From Saccoglossus kowalevskii (Eukaryota; Hemichordata; Enteropneusta; Harrimaniidae): DNA of 21,298 nt. The stretch spans positions 94,499 to 115,796 of the forward strand of contig NW_003148782.1 in NCBI RefSeq assembly GCF_000003605.2, written 5' to 3'. The position numbers and the translations under genes are program-made. Below the pieces are notes generated by a model that was not told where the DNA came from, did no database searches, and saw only the letters and a program-made list of their open reading frames with translations. The number at the start of each line of letters is the position of its first letter. Within the stretch, counting starts at the first letter, position 1. Shown in pieces: positions 1,977 to 21,298 of this stretch.

Positions 1977-4900
1977 GTAAGTTTTGCTGCTTTAGTTTCT
2001 AAGATAAAACCACAGTAAAGTTAGCTAAAATAACCAAATATTCTTCTTAATATAAAAGAGAAAGATTACTAATGTGCAAACTACCAAATGTGGAGTTACA
2101 CAAAAATATAAGCGTAAAGCCAGGACAATGGGCAACATGATCAAGAGTGGTATGTAGTCGAGACAAGATTATAATATTAATAAGTGTCATAATGTATTCT
2201 CCCAAACATCTGTGAACATCGGGCAAACTTTAAATCGATCACCTGTCTAAGAGGAAATGGCTTCTTTTCGTGGCCTTTTGTAATTGAAAACATGCCTACT
2301 TGTATTTATTTTGAATAATAATGTTTGGACTGGTCTTCCCAGACCTTTTATTTCTTTATGTTCAACTCAGTCAATTTCCGGTTTCTCTGCTTATATTACA
2401 AGTACTAATCACAACATTTCAATGAAACTTGGCATATAAATGCTCTAGCACCATCTGTGCATATTGAACACCTAATTTGCATAATGATTAGTCAGTTTTT
2501 GGCTTCTCCACTAATATCTCAAGTTCTGATCACATTTCAATGCTCTTGAATAAATTAAACTGAAAACAAAGTAAATATTTTTCATGTTGTAAATTTTGAT
2601 GTCCTTAACCATTTATTAGAAATGCTGTGACTGCTTTTGTTCAAAATTAGTACTAAGACAAGACTTAATGCATGTTCATTTCTATTTTGGTCTCGTTTTG
2701 GAGTTTTTTTTTCTAAAAAACTATTTCATAAACCATTTCTCTGGTATACCCTTGGCAAATTTATTCAAACTTCATAAAGGATAGGTAGTGAAGCTCATTT
2801 TGGTTTTATGTTACATTTTTCATATTCTTGCCAATTTGTTTTTTGTTTCAGTGAAATTTCCATTTTTTTTTTAACAAATATAAATGGGTACTTCATGTAT
2901 GTCATTGATAATTGTTTCTATTACTATGCAAGTATTTAATGCATTCACCCATCTAAACTACATGAAGAATTGACTGATATGTAAATTACAATTGATGCTT
3001 GGTTGTTACTTGGTTCCTCTCTGTGATAAAGGTCACTTGTGATAGTTGATAGAAATCATTCATGGTGTCAGTTCATGCATGCATGCATGCTGCTGCATGA
3101 ATTGTCAGTCTAACATGTCACTGCATGGCGAGTTGTGATAACATTCACAAAATAAATCAATTTTAGATTTAACCACATGAGCCAGTACATGTACATAATT
3201 AGTACTAGATCGTGTACAGTTGATGGCATCATCTACTCCCACACACTGTTCCCTTTTAAATGCAAAGTAAAGGCTAATGCTTCCCTTTAGACCTTTGGAT
3301 ATTCCATGAATCAACTGCTTTTCAAACTCAATAGAAATCCTATAGATTATCATATGCCAGATGTTTTCATATTACCGTTTGTCCATCAAACTTCAATATG
3401 TTCAAAATTGTCTTCAAAACCGCAAACCAAATTGAATTTATTAATCCCACTCAAGCAGATATTTATGTACATTGGGTGTTTTCTTCCTTTGATTTTTTTC
3501 ATTGCATTACAACATGTTTATTTATTTTTAAAAACCATCAAACCAATTTAATTCATATTTGATTGGCAGATCCAGATCTATTAATTTTGTTCATTTGATG
3601 ATAGTATCAATTCTCTATTGCTCGTTAATATTTTTGGTTTTTGATTTTTTTTTCCCAAAAAACACCAGCGGGATTGGTTGTGAAAAAACTGTGAAAGTCC
3701 TATTTTTGTTTTAATATGCTTACAAATGTAGCAGTATATTGAAGACTATTATGGCATAACATTGCTGTATGGCATTATAAAATTGTTAACAAAATTTGTT
3801 TCTTATTGAAGGTACAAATTCGTCCTTGGAATCTTGCTGATAGTGACTATGTGATGGATGGGTCGCAGCCATTAGATCCTAGAAAAACTATCTTTGTTGG
3901 TGGTGTTCCAAGACCATTAAGAGCAGGTAAATATACTACTATCATACATACGACTTCAGTATTTACAAAAAACTTGTAATCTTTGTTAATCAAGCCTGAT
4001 AGAGGTCCAGTTGATATGAGCAGCATGCATGTATGGTGTTTGTATAACAATTTCTGGCAGTGAACGCCAGATTTTAATCAAACTTGGTATGAACATCACA
4101 CTTGGATTGCTGTTGAATTTTTTTCTATTTTTTGCTACGTTTGTTATATGTCAAGGTATATGAGGGTGAAATGTCCGTTCTTTGTATTGTCAGCTTTGTC
4201 AACCTTTATCACACATGTATGTTGATTTGTACTGCTATTATTAGTTTGTTTCAACTGCTTTATTCAACTTCTTCAAAATAGCTAGCCAATTCCCAATTTT
4301 CAAGATCTTGGTTTTCCCTAGAAGGCCGCGCTTGGCGGTTATCAAAGTACTCGGATGACAACCACTGTCACGGCTCTGAGTGGGGTTAAAATAACCACAG
4401 CTTTGGCGTTTACTTGCTGACACAAAGTGAATTTCTTGGCTTACTTACGAGGACGCAATAATCACAATGGTAAATTGGTATTGCAATGCTCCTGGCTGTT
4501 CTTCCAGTGCCATAAAGAAAACAAATCTGACAAAATATCCAGAATATATTTAATATTATAACCCGGTGTATTATTGACTGCAGTGAATTTCATTATTGAT
4601 GCCAAAATCTAGCACTTGCTGATTGCGAGTACTTACTATTTTTTTCACGATGTAGTTGTCTGAATAATTAGTTTCCCACTTATGAATCATGGAGTTAGCT
4701 ATACCTACTGGCTATTACTCGGCCATGTCAATATTTAAACGAATGCGACAAGTTTCGCTGATTTAGTGAAAGTAATGTCATTAGTTCAATGTCGGACACA
4801 GTGAGTTCATTTGCCATGTACTGTATAAAATTGGTTGCACTTGAAGATTTGAATTTATTGCCTAAATCCGGAATTGTTGGTGGTTCTGTTACTGAGTTTA

Positions 4901-7900
4901 ACATTGGATCCAACATGTGGTTGTAGCATGAGTTCACGGGGGGAAAATATCGTGACTACCGGTAGTTTTGATTAAATCTTCGTTGTTTTCATGGCATGAT
5001 TTTCTTCCTGGGTTGTAAGATGACAATGTTGGTTTAGCAGTGGCTGGACGCGTTTTATTTCGTCTTATATCGATATTATCAATTTGCTGGAGGGTGGATT
5101 CCTTTCTCGGCTTGTCCCATATACGTGCAACGTCAGTGCCGACCTGTGTTGCGTGATCTTTGTGGCGCAAGTCAAAATCCTGGATACTGATTAGTAGTGC
5201 CACATAGTGTTTGCATGAATAAGAATTATATTTTCAATGAAAATTATTTTTAGCTACAATCATTAAAGCGATTACATGTATTACCGGTAATAAGATTTAT
5301 TTAAAGTCACTCGACAAGGAGCGGAAGTGTAACTTATGTTCAGTGATGCTTGTAGTTGCATCTATTTCTTAATAAAATAAAAAATTACTTGCGCAACGCA
5401 ATTACAGCCACCGGAAATTATTTCTGAACTTGTTTAACCAGAAACCAGCATTGGTAAGGTTTTTCTTTTTGGGATGTTTCTCGAACACACTCGGCCACGA
5501 TGTAAATAAATTCAGTTTCTTTAACATGGTGAAGGTTGACGGAAACAATATGTCCATCTTTGTACAGAAGAAAACCATTGTCAAGTCGATATTCTTTTAA
5601 CCTGGAAGGTGTCCAGTCACATCAATGTATTAAGTACGCAAATATATCTGCAGTTTCAAATGATGGCATGTAATGGAGGGTTTTCTCCAAGGTTTTGATA
5701 GTATACTGATCTTCTAATGCCAGGGTAGATTCCTTGTCTTGAACTGTACGACGACGCTTGCTTGAGGTTTCGCGATCGTCAGGCTCTAAAGGCGAACTTT
5801 TAACACATTTGCAAGTTTCACGAGTTCAATCAGCTTGGCTTTTCGTGTATTACAACAAGTTATCCCTCATCCTTGTAGAAACTGACGTAATTCAGAAACT
5901 TTTCTCGAAAGCAAATTTTTCATTGTTACGGTTTTGTGAACAGCACAAAACAACCCCACTGGGAGTACGCCCCCGCACGGCAAAACCTTGAAATGTATAT
6001 GTGAATTAGCTGCCATTGAGAACTGGAAAATTGGGAATTTGTTTTGATGTTTTATATTTAGGTACCTTGGGTGGACCTTTATCAGATTTGTTCATTTCAT
6101 TTCCATGTATATAGTTATTTAATTTTTTGACAGATTGCATTTAGTAAATTTGTGTAAATGTTGCTCAAAAAACATTCACTTTTTTTTATTTTTCCCTCAT
6201 AGAGCTTTGTGTATTAACTGTCTACAATATTTAAAACACGACTGTTTCAAAAATTAGTTGGTGACACAGCTTTGTTAGCTCCGCTGTCGACTTTGTCGAG
6301 CGGAGCTTATCATATGAGTGATTGTCCGTCGTCGTCGTCCGTGTCAATGTTTTACTTTTTCGACTTCTTCTTGAAAACTACAAGCCTGAATGCTTTGATA
6401 CTTGGTGTATATGTACCTTGGGTAGACCTCTCTTAGGTTTGTTCATTTCATGTTGATATCTTCAATTCTCTAATTTTGGTGAATATTTTTGTCATTTTTG
6501 GTAAAAAGTGATATTTTCGACTTCTTGTTAAAAACCGCAAGTGCAATTGCTTTGATATTACATATATAGGTACTACATGTGGACCTCTCTCAGATTTGTT
6601 CATTTTGTAATGATATCTTTAATTCTCTAATTTTGGTGAATATTTTTGTAATTTTTGGTAAAAAGTGATATTTTCGACTTGTTAAAAACCACAAGTCCGA
6701 TTGCTTTGATATTACATATATAGGTACTACATGTGGACCTTTCTCAGATTTGTTTATTTCGTGATGGTATCTTCGATTCTATAATTTTGGTGAATATTTT
6801 TGTCATTGTTGGTAAAAAGTGATATTTTCGACTTCTTGTAAAAAACCAATAGTCTGATTGCTTTGATATTACATATATAGGTACTACATGTGGACCTCTC
6901 TCAGATTTGTTCATTTTGTGATGGTATCTTCAATTCTCTAATTTTGGTGAATATTTTTGTAATTTTTGGTAAAAAGTGATATTTTCGACTTGTTAAAAAC
7001 CAAAAGTTCAATTGCTTTGATATTACTATATAGATACTACATGTAGACCTTTCTTAGATTTGTTCATTTCGTGATGATATCTTCAATTCTCTAATTTTGG
7101 TGAATATTTTTGTAATTTTTGGTAAAAAGTGATATTTTCGACTTCTTGTTAAAAACTGTAAGTCCGATTGCTTTGATACTATACATATTGTTCATTTTCT
7201 AATGATGTCTTCATCAGTTCTTTAATTGAAATGTGCATTGCTAACAGCGGAGCTATCTCAGCCGATAGGCTGCTTGTTTTTCTTTTTACAAATATTGAGT
7301 GTGCAAAAACTTAAATAAAGAATCATTAGTTTGACTGTCTATTGTAAGTGCTGTTACTAGAATAAACATCTATGAGGTGATTCACTGTGGTGTTTGTGAA
7401 TTGTAGCAGATATTCAAAATGTGTTATCAGCAGATGTGCACCAGCAATTATTGCCAACTGTGACCGGATGTGAAAACTCAATGTTGTTTGTTGTTTATGC
7501 AGGTTGCATTTAATGCAATGAGGTCACTGAAGCATATTACTGTAATATTCCTGAAATAGAACACAAGTGATGAAGGAAAATGTCCAAATATTTGAAAAAT
7601 TGAAAGCATATTTTGTCATTATTGAAATGTTAAGTGCGAGTCACATGTACATAGATTTCTCAGTTAGTATTCAGTCGTGATGTATGAATACTGCAAAGCC
7701 TGTAAACCATTGTAATTTTGTGAAAAACAGATTTTCACGAGTTTTGCGAATTGTGTTGCAAGGAAATGTTGTATTCACAAATGGCAAATGCTGAAATTGC
7801 AAATATTTCTAGCAGTGAAAATTAAACAGTTTACTAGTACACAATGTAAAATAGCCATAGCTGCTGCTGTTTGATTGAATTTAAAAAAAAAATCAAAACT

Positions 7901-10900: not shown

Positions 10901-11639
10901 TCATCAATAACTTTTTTAAATATATTAGTTTTCGCCTCAGCTTTGGACACTCATTGCCCACTATAAATGATACTGGTGAAGAATTTATCTTCCTGTCTAT
11001 TCTTGAAATAAAGCAAACCCTGCTATTGAAACAAATCAGGCATAATATGGATTTTATACCCGGCATATGGTTGTGACAACAGCTTGAGGAATATTGATTG
11101 TATGCCTACAAGCTAGGGAATTAAATACAAACAAAAGCTCCAAAGAAAACTTAAGTAATGGCATTCAACACGCACATGACTATATTGTATCTCCAATATG
11201 GTACCACAAAGACAAATGCTTACAAATATGGATTTATTTCTGTAGTTGTATGAATGAATACGTCTGCCATTTTGATTATTAATATTTATTTTGTGCACAT
11301 TTCAATAATCTGTGTTCCTGATGACACGCATATATACTTGTAATTAATATTTACTGATTTGTTGACTGAATGTAGGTTTATGATAATAATTTGTTTGCTT
11401 TCATTTTTAAGGTGGAAGTGAAACCTTATGTTTTGGATGACCAAATGTGTGATGAATGCCAGGGAGCACGATGTGCGGGCAAGTTTGCACCATTCTTCTG
11501 TGCTAATGTTACCTGTCTGCAGTACTACTGTGAGCATTGCTGGGCAACTATTCATTCTCGTGCTGGTCGTGAATTTCACAAGCCACTAGTTAAAGAGGGA
11601 GCAGACCGTCCACGTACTGTTCCCTTTCGCTGGTGTTAA
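1858..11639 (+). CDS. CPEB2/3/4: CPEB2/3/4 (Orb2)-class cytoplasmic polyadenylation element-binding protein, C-terminal part, four exons joined
   Basis: Joining 1858-1976, 3812-3926, 7976-8157 and 11412-11639 gives one open frame of about 214 residues. In order it encodes RNP1 of RRM1 (GYAFLLF), the rest of RRM1, RRM2 (RNP2 TIFVGGV, RNP1 KGAGRVAF) and a ZZ-type zinc-binding domain ending FRWC-stop. The sequence is nearly identical to the C-terminal half of vertebrate CPEB2-4 and fly Orb2 as I know them, and unlike CPEB1/Orb. Members bind U-rich or CPE-containing mRNA 3' UTRs in the cytoplasm and control poly(A) tail length and translation; the ZZ domain binds zinc and probably protein partners. 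All splice sites are GT-AG, with intron phases 1 (entering the first exon seen), 0, 1 and 0. The N-terminal low-complexity region and first half of RRM1 (RNP2 exon) are not in the window, so the gene is partial only because of the window edge. I see no frameshift or premature stop. Confidence 0.96.
2369..2575. repeat. Degenerate tandem pair, about 121-bp period
   Basis: Two diverged copies start with GTCAATTTCCGGTTTCT and GTCAGTTTTTGGCTTCT, and continue with ATATTACAAGTACTAATCAC versus ATATCTCAAGTTCTGATCAC and then ATTTCAATG. The offset is 121 bases. The general style resembles the degenerate array at 17-19 kb, but I could not show that they are homologous. Confidence 0.5.
3072..3101. repeat. 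CATG microsatellite inside a palindrome
   Basis: A short run of GCAT/CATG units is bounded by TTCATGCA on the left and TGCATGAA on the right. The whole forms an imperfect foldback of 30 bases. No function is evident. Confidence 0.6.
3812..3926 (+). CDS. CPEB2/3/4: CPEB exon: inter-RRM linker and start of RRM2
   Basis: The acceptor is TTTCTTATTGAAG and the donor is GCAG|GTAAAT. The exon encodes 38 codons plus the first base of a valine codon. It starts VQIRPWN, continues with [15 protein letters not shown], and contains RNP2 of RRM2 (TIFVGGVP) before ending PRPLRA. This linker and RNP2 are hallmarks of the CPEB2/3/4 branch. A minus-strand open frame over the same bases is a shadow of this exon. 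Confidence 0.95.
4467..4553 (+). pseudogene. THAP zinc-finger N-terminus relic (transposase-like)
   Basis: The 28-codon frame from ATG 4467 to TAA 4551-4553 begins [14 protein letters not shown] and ends with TKYPE and a few more residues. The initiator methionine, the C-x4-C pair and a Y/F-P-(E/D) motif about 15 residues later follow the start of a THAP domain (C2CH DNA-binding finger, common in P-element, Kolobok and related transposases). The downstream W, C-x2-H and AVPT-type motifs are missing, so only the first part of a finger remains. It could also be the first exon of a gene whose remainder is lost. Its position about 180 bases inside the left inverted repeat fits a transposase start. 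Confidence 0.45.
4695..5923 (-). pseudogene. SAP - SWIM zinc finger - YqaJ-type gene relic, broken by stops and frameshifts
   Basis: Reading leftward from an ATG at 5923-5921, a SAP-like stretch ([13 protein letters not shown], stop [22 protein letters not shown]) is followed by a charged linker ([13 protein letters not shown]). After a TGA at 5624-5622, a 67-residue frame (5621-5421) contains [14 protein letters not shown] and KDGHIVSV. Then come the two halves of a SWIM finger: GCNCVAQ (about 5409-5389) and [14 protein letters not shown] (5215 leftward), separated by a GTAATT-initiated gap of 173 bases that looks like an intron. The region after it reads [13 protein letters not shown] and SYNPGRKS. 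A frameshift leads to [11 protein letters not shown]...[14 protein letters not shown], and beyond a TGA comes [10 protein letters not shown], which resembles the GRITAS motif at the start of YqaJ nuclease domains. The nuclease core is missing. The order matches the uncharacterised SWIM/YqaJ proteins abundant in marine invertebrates; the assignment rests on recalled family patterns. Confidence 0.6.
6276..7280 (+). mobile_element. Pearl/DINE-like non-autonomous element with a tandem-repeat core
   Basis: Twelve-base inverted motifs TAGCTCCGCTGT (6276-6287) and ACAGCGGAGCTA (7244-7255) lie near the ends. The left end adds a GCTCCGCT...AGCGGAGC foldback and a GTCGTCGTCGTC run. The right end adds a hairpin (CAGCC-GATA-GGCTG) before CTTGTTTT, and this same right boundary recurs at 1041. 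Between them is a tandem core of about 155-bp units and no coding capacity. Short inverted ends, a repeat core and a 3' hairpin fit the pearl and DINE-1 type elements that are regarded as non-autonomous relatives of Helitron/Helentron elements. Placing it there is inference; no autonomous partner is in the window. Confidence 0.7.
6351..7190 (+). repeat. Tandem array, five units of about 155 bp plus one partial
   Basis: The landmark GTGATATTTTCGACTT recurs with its ATATTTTCG starting at 6511, 6668, 6822, 6979 and 7132, spacings of 157, 154, 157 and 153 bases. Units 1, 3 and 5 read CGACTTCTTGT, while units 2 and 4 read CGACTTGTTAAA with three bases fewer. Other shared phrases are TTGCTTTGATATTACATATA, ACCTCTCTCAGATTTGTTCA and AATTTTGGTGAATATTTTTG. 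A diverged partial unit begins the array near 6351. Confidence 0.9.
7976..8157 (+). CDS. CPEB2/3/4: CPEB exon: body of RRM2
   Basis: The acceptor is TTATCTGTATTTCAG and the donor is AAGAGG|GTAAAT. Two bases complete the split valine codon, then 60 codons follow. The peptide begins (V)[17 protein letters not shown] and carries RNP1 of RRM2 (KGAGRVAF), then [18 protein letters not shown], and ends DKR. This is essentially the whole of RRM2 after RNP2 and is among the most conserved stretches of animal CPEB2-4. The ATG at 7987 is internal (Met of ELAMIM) and not a translation start. If the next intron were retained, the frame would stop after seven codons (TGA at 8179-8181). Confidence 0.96.
8158..11411 (+). 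other. CPEB intron before the last coding exon
   Basis: This phase-0 intron of 3,254 bases (GTAAAT to TTTAAG) is AT-rich, with no supported gene or complete transposon. It holds three TACCGGTA octamers (8606, 9353, 10751) and a small inverted repeat ATCGCCTG (10807-10814) with CAGGCGAT (10864-10871) about 65 bases across. A more GC-rich patch near 10495-10620 (AGGGTTTTCCCCC and neighbours) looks repeat-like but could not be assigned. Several 60 to 97 residue open frames have no recognisable product. Confidence 0.8.
11412..11639 (+). CDS. CPEB2/3/4: CPEB terminal coding exon: ZZ zinc-binding domain and C-terminus
   Basis: The acceptor TTTGCTTTCATTTTTAAG precedes 75 codons and the TAA stop at 11637-11639. 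The start [16 protein letters not shown] leads into the ZZ domain. The expected cross-braced ligands are all present: the CDEC pair, the cysteines in ARC, FFC, VTC and YYC, the second cysteine of CEHC, and the two histidines in TIH and EFH. The tail reads [11 protein letters not shown] and finishes PFRWC; vertebrate paralogues end in a very similar FRW-plus-one-residue tail. The in-frame ATG at 11391 lies in intron sequence and is not a start. Confidence 0.96.
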   Translation: MEVKPYVLDDQMCDECQGARCAGKFAPFFCANVTCLQYYCEHCWATIHSRAGREFHKPLVKEGADRPRTVPFRWC

Positions 11640-20137: not shown

Positions 20138-21298
20138 GTTAGTGCCACCATATAAACAATTCCAACCTGGCTGGTGCCACTATAAAAATATTTACAACCT
20201 GACTCTTGTCACCGTATAAATAATTACAACCTGGCTGGTTCCACCATATAAACAATTACAACCTGGCTGGTGCCACCATACAAACAATTACAACCTGGCT
20301 GGTGCCACCATACAAACAATTACAACCTGGCTGGTGCCTCCATATAAACAATTACAACCTGACTGGTGCCACTATATAAACATTTACAACCTGACTCTTG
20401 TCACCGTATAAATAATTACAACCTGGCTGGTTCCACCGTATAAATAATTACAACCTGGCTGGTGCCACCATACAAACAATTACAACCTGGCTGGTGCCTC
20501 CATATAAACAATTACAACCTGACTGGTGCCACTATATAAACATTTACAACCTGACTGTTGTCACCGTATAAATAATTACAACCTGGCTGGTTCCACCATA
20601 TAAACATTTACAACCTGGCTATTGCCACCTCACAAACAATTACAACCTGGCTGGTGACACCATATAAACAATTACAACCTGACTGGTGCCACTATATAAA
20701 CATTTACAACCTGACTCTTGTCACCGTATAAATAATTACAACCTGGCTGGTGACACCACACAAACAATTACAACCTGGCTGTTGCTACCATAAAAACGAT
20801 TACAATTTGACTGCTGCCTCCATATAAACAATTACAACCTGGCTGGTGCCACCACACAAACAATTCCAACCTGGCTGGTTCCACCATATAAATAATTACA
20901 ACCTGACTCTTGTCACCGTATAAATAATTACAACCTGGCTGGTGCCACCGTACAAACAATAACAACCTGGCTGGGGACACCATATAAACAATTACAACCT
21001 GGCTGGTGCCACCATACAAACAATTACAACCTGGCTGGGGACACCATACAAACAATTCCAACCTGGCTGTTGCCACCATACAAACAATTCCAACCTGGCT
21101 GTTGCCACCATACAAACAATTCCAACCTGGCTGTTGCCACCATACAAACAATTCCAACCTGGCTGTTGCCACCATACAAACAATTACAACCTGGCTGGTG
21201 CCACCACACAAACAATTCCAACCTGGCTGGTTCCACCATATAAACAATTACAACCTGACTCTTGTCACCGTACAAACAATTACAACCTGGCTGGTGCT
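20138..21298. repeat. 32-bp minisatellite, about 36 copies, running off the window
   Basis: The monomer is of the type ACCTGGCTGGTGCCACCATA plus CAAACAATTACA. Landmark ACC positions (20147, 20211, 20403, 20435, 20563, 20723, 20915, 21267) all differ by exact multiples of 32, so no net insertion or deletion is visible over 1.1 kb. Variants (TGCC, TTCC, TGAC, TGTC before ACC; CTGGCTGG or CTGACTCTTG) recur in blocks. Open frames of up to 159 residues on the minus strand arise because three 32-bp units make a stop-free 96-base, 32-residue cycle; they are not genes. Confidence 0.97.

Follow-up and report, generated by a model that had tools for sequence, protein, structure and literature searches.

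ISL2EU transposons, a group of the PHIS/Harbinger-like superfamily found in animals, use A|AT|T as their target and duplicate the central AT (Han and co-workers, 2015; PMC4482050). In the available part of that study, most autonomous candidates carry a transposase with THAP, HTH and DDE domains and a second gene for a YqaJ protein, whose role the authors left undetermined. The ends usually begin with GG, as a usual trait rather than a criterion of the group. The partly available account in PMC9179366 is much the same, and among the PHIS groups described in these portions of the two papers, a YqaJ second gene is named for ISL2EU alone. Here we describe an element at positions 4288–6039 of a 21,298-nucleotide stretch of the Saccoglossus kowalevskii genome (hereafter the window). 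The element is very probably a non-autonomous, internally deleted ISL2EU-type cut-and-paste DNA transposon of the PHIS/Harbinger-like superfamily, probably residing in a CPEB intron of this animal. The placement is based on the inverted ends, the AATT at the ends, the convergent gene starts, the missing catalytic cores, the related copies, and relatives with convergent cores.

The element resembles ISL2EU in being an animal DNA transposon with inverted ends and an AATT target compatible with A|AT|T, and its relatives point to a THAP-HTH-DDE transposase accompanied by a YqaJ protein. It differs in that its ends lack the usual GG, the copy is internally deleted, and the second gene opens with a SAP/HeH-like segment and includes a SWIM-like motif, neither of which appears in the available ISL2EU accounts (PMC4482050, PMC9179366). 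Spy, of the same superfamily, shares a related transposase type and an AT-rich palindromic target, but in the available descriptions mostly has one gene, lacks YqaJ, and inserts into AAATTT without a duplication (PMC4482050, PMC9179366). PIF/Harbinger, Pangu, and Nuwa, also PHIS members, share a related DDE transposase and a second gene, whereas that gene is of the Myb/SANT type and their targets are TWA, ANT, CWG, or C|TNA|G (PMC4482050, available part). None of the literature matches listed combines "SAP domain" or "SWIM zinc finger" with ISL2EU or YqaJ, and the SAP/SWIM-like front adds a small detail to the published picture of the ISL2EU second gene. A first-pass annotation of the window had linked SAP-SWIM-YqaJ proteins to a two-gene transposon. 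The relatives described below support this link, while its novelty is lost, as the connection between YqaJ and a transposon has been in print for ISL2EU since 2015; what is new is a family within a known group.

Inverted ends, copies, and target site

The terminal inverted repeats of the element are located at 4288–4308 (plus strand) and 6019–6039 (minus strand), and include the AATT target bases at 4288–4291 and 6036–6039, respectively. The two 21-nucleotide (nt) repeats are 90% complementary and contain an exact 14-mer. Both borders recur as the same ends in other copies, and the left border was additionally placed by the joined-flank alignments described below. When the two 300-nt ends were shuffled by mononucleotide, none of the 500 shuffles reached an exact match of 14 bases (best, 13). 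The whole window holds five exact inverted 14-mers starting 300–5000 nt apart, the other four of which are A/T-rich, with two overlapping. A second inverted block has 14-nt arms (86%) at 4374–4387 (plus strand) and 5952–5965 (minus strand), with a 9-base exact match inside, as seen by eye. The 14-base end match and the 9-base block reported in the first-pass annotation are both present, embedded in these longer arms. An Rfam search of the window returned nothing at the gathering score.

Depending on how AATT is divided, the element ends start with TTCCC, TCCC, or CCC, and a GG start was not encountered; the ends of a sister family mostly start with CCT. The inverted ends of ISL2EU range from 6 to 259 base pairs (bp), which covers both the 21 nt (90%) of the window element and the 70–76 nt of the sister family.

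A search of the genome of origin (572 Mb, 4830 contigs) with the element DNA yielded 51 matches, itself included. We counted at least 15 family loci, including the window, at 79% or more over at least 94 bases, with one other full-length copy (84%). AATT was present at 8 of the 12 left ends and 9 of the 12 right ends examined (17/24). The remaining seven ends differ from it by at least one base, and two of these belong to the 69–72% relatives L026 and L027. The window element, L009, L011, L013, and L014 carry AATT at both ends. In the sister family, comprising 10 elements with 70–76 nt inverted repeats, AATT was found at 10/10 left and 9/10 right ends (19/20). The expectation that other genomic copies share both ends was thus borne out by L009, L011, L013, and L014 and by the sister family.

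Empty sites were sought for 14 elements, picked for having both ends intact, by joining the flanks at a single AATT. For the window element, the sequence joined in this way aligns with five units of a neighbouring 157-bp array at 65–72% identity; one of these alignments extends over 98 bases without a gap, and the other four are gapped outside the four target bases. For another element, L045, five paralogues span the junction, including two that are gap-free at 84–85% over 140 bases, and four of the five have AATG in place of the AATT of the filled site. Flanks joined at a single AATT therefore fit gap-free empty-site paralogues of both the window element and L045. Because AATT is palindromic, duplications of 0, 2, or 4 bp give an identical empty site, and the duplication length, which the first-pass annotation had hoped to define from empty sites, is hidden even where paralogous empty sites were obtained.

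This ambiguity leaves room for an element of the same superfamily that makes no target duplication, as Spy, or one of 4 bp, instead of the 2-bp AT of ISL2EU. The insertion of Spy into AAATTT without a duplication (PMC4482050, available part) and the absence of the usual GG from the window element ends are both compatible with such an element. Spy, however, has one gene only, and the YqaJ second gene is the property named solely for ISL2EU in the descriptions available. We consider a 0- or 4-bp duplication improbable.

Gene remains and relatives that retain the missing middle

Gene pieces were placed by translation and by piecewise tblastn with pieces of relatives. The window element has in-frame stops, and both catalytic cores are gone. 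Reading in from the left on the plus strand, the start of the transposase gene, with a THAP-like zinc finger onset, lies at 4467–4544 (62% over 26 amino acids (aa) to the relative L030). It is followed at about 4561–4596 (plus strand) by a 12-aa transposase core remnant, overlooked by the first-pass annotation, which sits between the two gene starts. The remnant corresponds to the last part of the L029 frame that carries HTH_Tnp_4; the following L029 frame is DDE_Tnp_4, and by eye the remnant was assigned to the surroundings of the first catalytic Asp.

The second gene occupies the minus strand between 5941, where it starts, and about 4597, and matches the relatives piece by piece. Its SAP/HeH-like start (5795–5941; 57% to L030, under Pfam cut-offs) is followed by a conserved middle part (5433–5792; 64% over 121 aa to L029), the first half of the SWIM-like motif, GGCNCVA (5392–5433; 79% over 14 aa), a probable intron splitting the motif (5219–5391), the second half of the motif with a linker (4997–5218; 62.5% over 72 aa for 4997–5212), a part upstream of the YqaJ onset (4698–4847; 50% to L029), and the onset of the YqaJ nuclease domain (4597–4690; 60% over 45 positions to L013), all on the same strand. 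The junction between the YqaJ onset and the core remnant was placed by eye. The intron was likewise assigned by eye, from a GTAAGT donor in L013 and an in-frame acceptor in L009; the donor bases of the window depart from GTAAGT. The second half of the motif reads SCKHY in the window and SCKHC in the relatives. Joined by eye with the L013 donor and the L009 acceptor, the motif shows the spacing C-x-C-x6-C-x-H, which was compared with the SWIM consensus. The THAP-like start from the left and the SAP/SWIM/YqaJ relic from the right, both proposed in the first-pass annotation, were thereby matched to relatives.

Profile searches gave a different outcome. The window SAP piece scored 13.8 bits for SAP (cut-off 23.9) and 16.6 bits for HeH/LEM (cut-off 28.9), and SAP in L030 reached 16.8 bits, also under the cut-off of 23.9. 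Two longer window pieces had no Pfam match, and the zf-SWIM profile did not match either of two exon-joined peptides. The SAP, SWIM, and YqaJ profile matches anticipated for the window pieces accordingly did not materialize above Pfam cut-offs. Because the profile searches of window pieces and typed peptides failed, THAP, SAP, and SWIM are not claimed at the profile level, and the domains of the window fragments are predicted from homology to the relatives.

The relatives hold parts of the missing middle, in agreement with an internally deleted copy that has lost both catalytic domains, as first proposed. L013, a 2.9-kb family member with both ends, is the nearest to an autonomous copy, and contains a YqaJ segment (25.2 bits; cut-off 22). 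The YqaJ second gene typical of ISL2EU is present in the family through L013, and the window element keeps the domain onset only. L029 carries HTH_Tnp_4 (45.1 bits) and DDE_Tnp_4 (125.1 bits) on one strand, with YqaJ-side and SAP-side parts on the opposite strand; its left end, judged by eye, is of the sister-family type. In L048, DDE-like pieces are convergent with a SAP-side piece. L044, which belongs to another family of this genome, has THAP (25.8 bits), DDE_Tnp_4 (91.8 bits), and YqaJ (32.8 bits), all above cut-off and tail to tail, and an HTH under its cut-off. The ends of L044 were not found, and none were seen in its flanking DNA (L049), where only frames were inspected. L050, which runs into N, contains a 457-aa open stretch with HTH (47.1 bits) and DDE (152.6 bits) that is convergent with YqaJ (40.6 bits); no THAP was detected in the stretch examined. 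A PHD finger (45.4 bits) was also observed at L050 2082–2291 (C3086), just downstream of the YqaJ frame on the same strand and beside the open DDE_Tnp_4 frame.

No single copy examined has THAP, HTH, and DDE all above cut-off. The convergent orientation that the first-pass annotation had predicted for full copies is found in relatives with DDE and YqaJ or SAP-side parts, and no copy was found that combines both ends with both cores. The check on whether full-length SWIM/YqaJ genes carry these flanks, as the first-pass annotation would require, gave a partial answer: the left end of L029 matches in type, and L044 and L050 were not followed out to their ends.

The THAP start is almost contiguous with the YqaJ part in L009, L010, L011, L014, L015, and L017, and L012 resembles this group in DNA. 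Because the junction of the window copy, which keeps the core remnant, differs from these nearly abutting copies, we infer that internal deletion occurred more than once.

The remains might also be read as a relic of another THAP-bearing superfamily that acquired a YqaJ gene. THAP is used by Kolobok and, in the partial account available, by P elements, and no complete copy carrying a DDE core between both ends was found, which is in keeping with this idea. The core remnant, however, matches L029, which has HTH_Tnp_4 and DDE_Tnp_4 frames and a left end of this kind. The ends carry AATT, not TTAA or an 8-bp duplication as with Kolobok- and P-type elements, and YqaJ and DDE_Tnp_4 are paired at several loci of the same genome. 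The DDE_Tnp_4 core of the relatives (L029, L044, L050) and the AATT at the ends led us to discard P elements and Kolobok, and an origin from either is very unlikely.

Genomic pairing and host locus

Genome-wide searches yielded at least 62 DDE_Tnp_4, 12 YqaJ, and 78 SAP-side matches, which merged into at least 51, 12, and 55 loci, respectively. Among the matches listed, 10 DDE_Tnp_4 neighbours lie within 6 kb of YqaJ or SAP-side loci, and eight of them are convergent; an even scatter of loci would be expected to give 0.07 pairs. Within the 20 loci fetched for DNA resemblance to the window element (L029–L048), a SAP-side match occurs in 19, THAP accompanies it in 12 of the 19, and the two are convergent in all 12. 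The 12 YqaJ matches listed comprise four in window-family loci, four tail to tail with DDE_Tnp_4, one near a DDE_Tnp_4 match but divergent, and three for which no DDE_Tnp_4 match was listed within 6 kb. The notion that unrelated THAP and SAP/YqaJ relics lie by chance between a 14-base inverted match draws on the weakness of each piece by profile alone, and was rejected with a negligible residual probability on the repeated copies, as the same arrangement and the same ends recur at many loci with different flanks.

The best listed YqaJ match (C809:53671–54144; 67.9 bits) has no DDE_Tnp_4 or SAP-side match on its contig among those listed, and might belong to the host or be an isolated relic. 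Two DDE_Tnp_4/SAP-side pairs at C38:9804–13345 and 26277–29983, about 16.5 kb apart, have similar spacing and perhaps represent a duplicated stretch.

A CPEB ZZ exon was identified at 11391–11636 of the window (Pfam, 76.9 bits). A possible RNA-binding CPEB exon was noticed by eye at about 3810–3930, and its 38-aa peptide has no Pfam match. The element probably lies in the intron of the CPEB gene between these positions. The window also contains two arrays. One, near the element at 6357–7188, consists of about 5.3 units of 157 bp that align with the joined insertion flanks; the other, at 20142–21297, comprises about 36 units of 32 bp and extends up to the window end.

Placement and implications

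Several observations weigh against the ISL2EU placement. No window fragment reaches a Pfam cut-off, and the THAP piece (4467–4544) has no THAP match in Pfam, a result that the first-pass annotation had itself named as counting against its proposal; THAP scored only 15.7 bits (cut-off 23.9) even in a longer relative of the family. An intact autonomous copy of the family, with both ends and both cores, was not found: L013 yielded no DDE piece, and L029 has no THAP match and showed no right end in the stretch inspected. The YqaJ-side pieces of L029, which have no YqaJ match in Pfam, were assigned through their likeness to L013 (54% over 80 aa). The gap-free empty-site paralogue of the window reads CGAT and not AATT, and the array units are distant paralogues only. 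A joined-flank match spanning the junction was obtained in only 4 of the 14 elements, with none for the other 10 in the DNA examined, and the matches of L030 and L046, with gaps about the junction, are hardly informative. The GG start usual for ISL2EU is absent from the element ends. Among the neighbouring pairs, the one at C4613 is divergent, and the one at C2726 is tandem, with its SAP-side match in a separate small THAP/SAP relic. Finally, the placement was set by published descriptions of domains and target, and not by a transposase tree.

Under the ISL2EU reading, the full element would have inverted ends enclosing two convergent genes, with a THAP-HTH-DDE transposase entering from the left and a SAP-like/SWIM-like/YqaJ nuclease from the right. 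Deletions would have removed the tail-to-tail middle, while the ends and both gene starts stayed. The deleted copies may have been moved in trans, by cut-and-paste, by a transposase made elsewhere that would recognize the inverted ends and insert into AATT. The ends and adjoining stretches are putative transposase binding sites, which could be why the deletions spare them together with the adjoining gene starts. As a guess, the YqaJ nuclease might process DNA ends after excision.

Such domain expansions have been read as endogenous viral elements in at least one genome paper (PMC7826175, available part). In the genome analysed here, a transposon family and convergent gene pairs explain most YqaJ matches, which aids annotation and establishes no new class. 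It is possible, although we hold this only tentatively and would sooner doubt than assume it, that the ISL2EU second gene in Saccoglossus kowalevskii encodes a DNA-handling nuclease of modular build, to which one set of families would add a SAP/SWIM-like front and another (L050) perhaps a PHD-finger tail. The gene, whose convergence with the transposase would be maintained in several families, would then be a true transposition partner and not a passenger.

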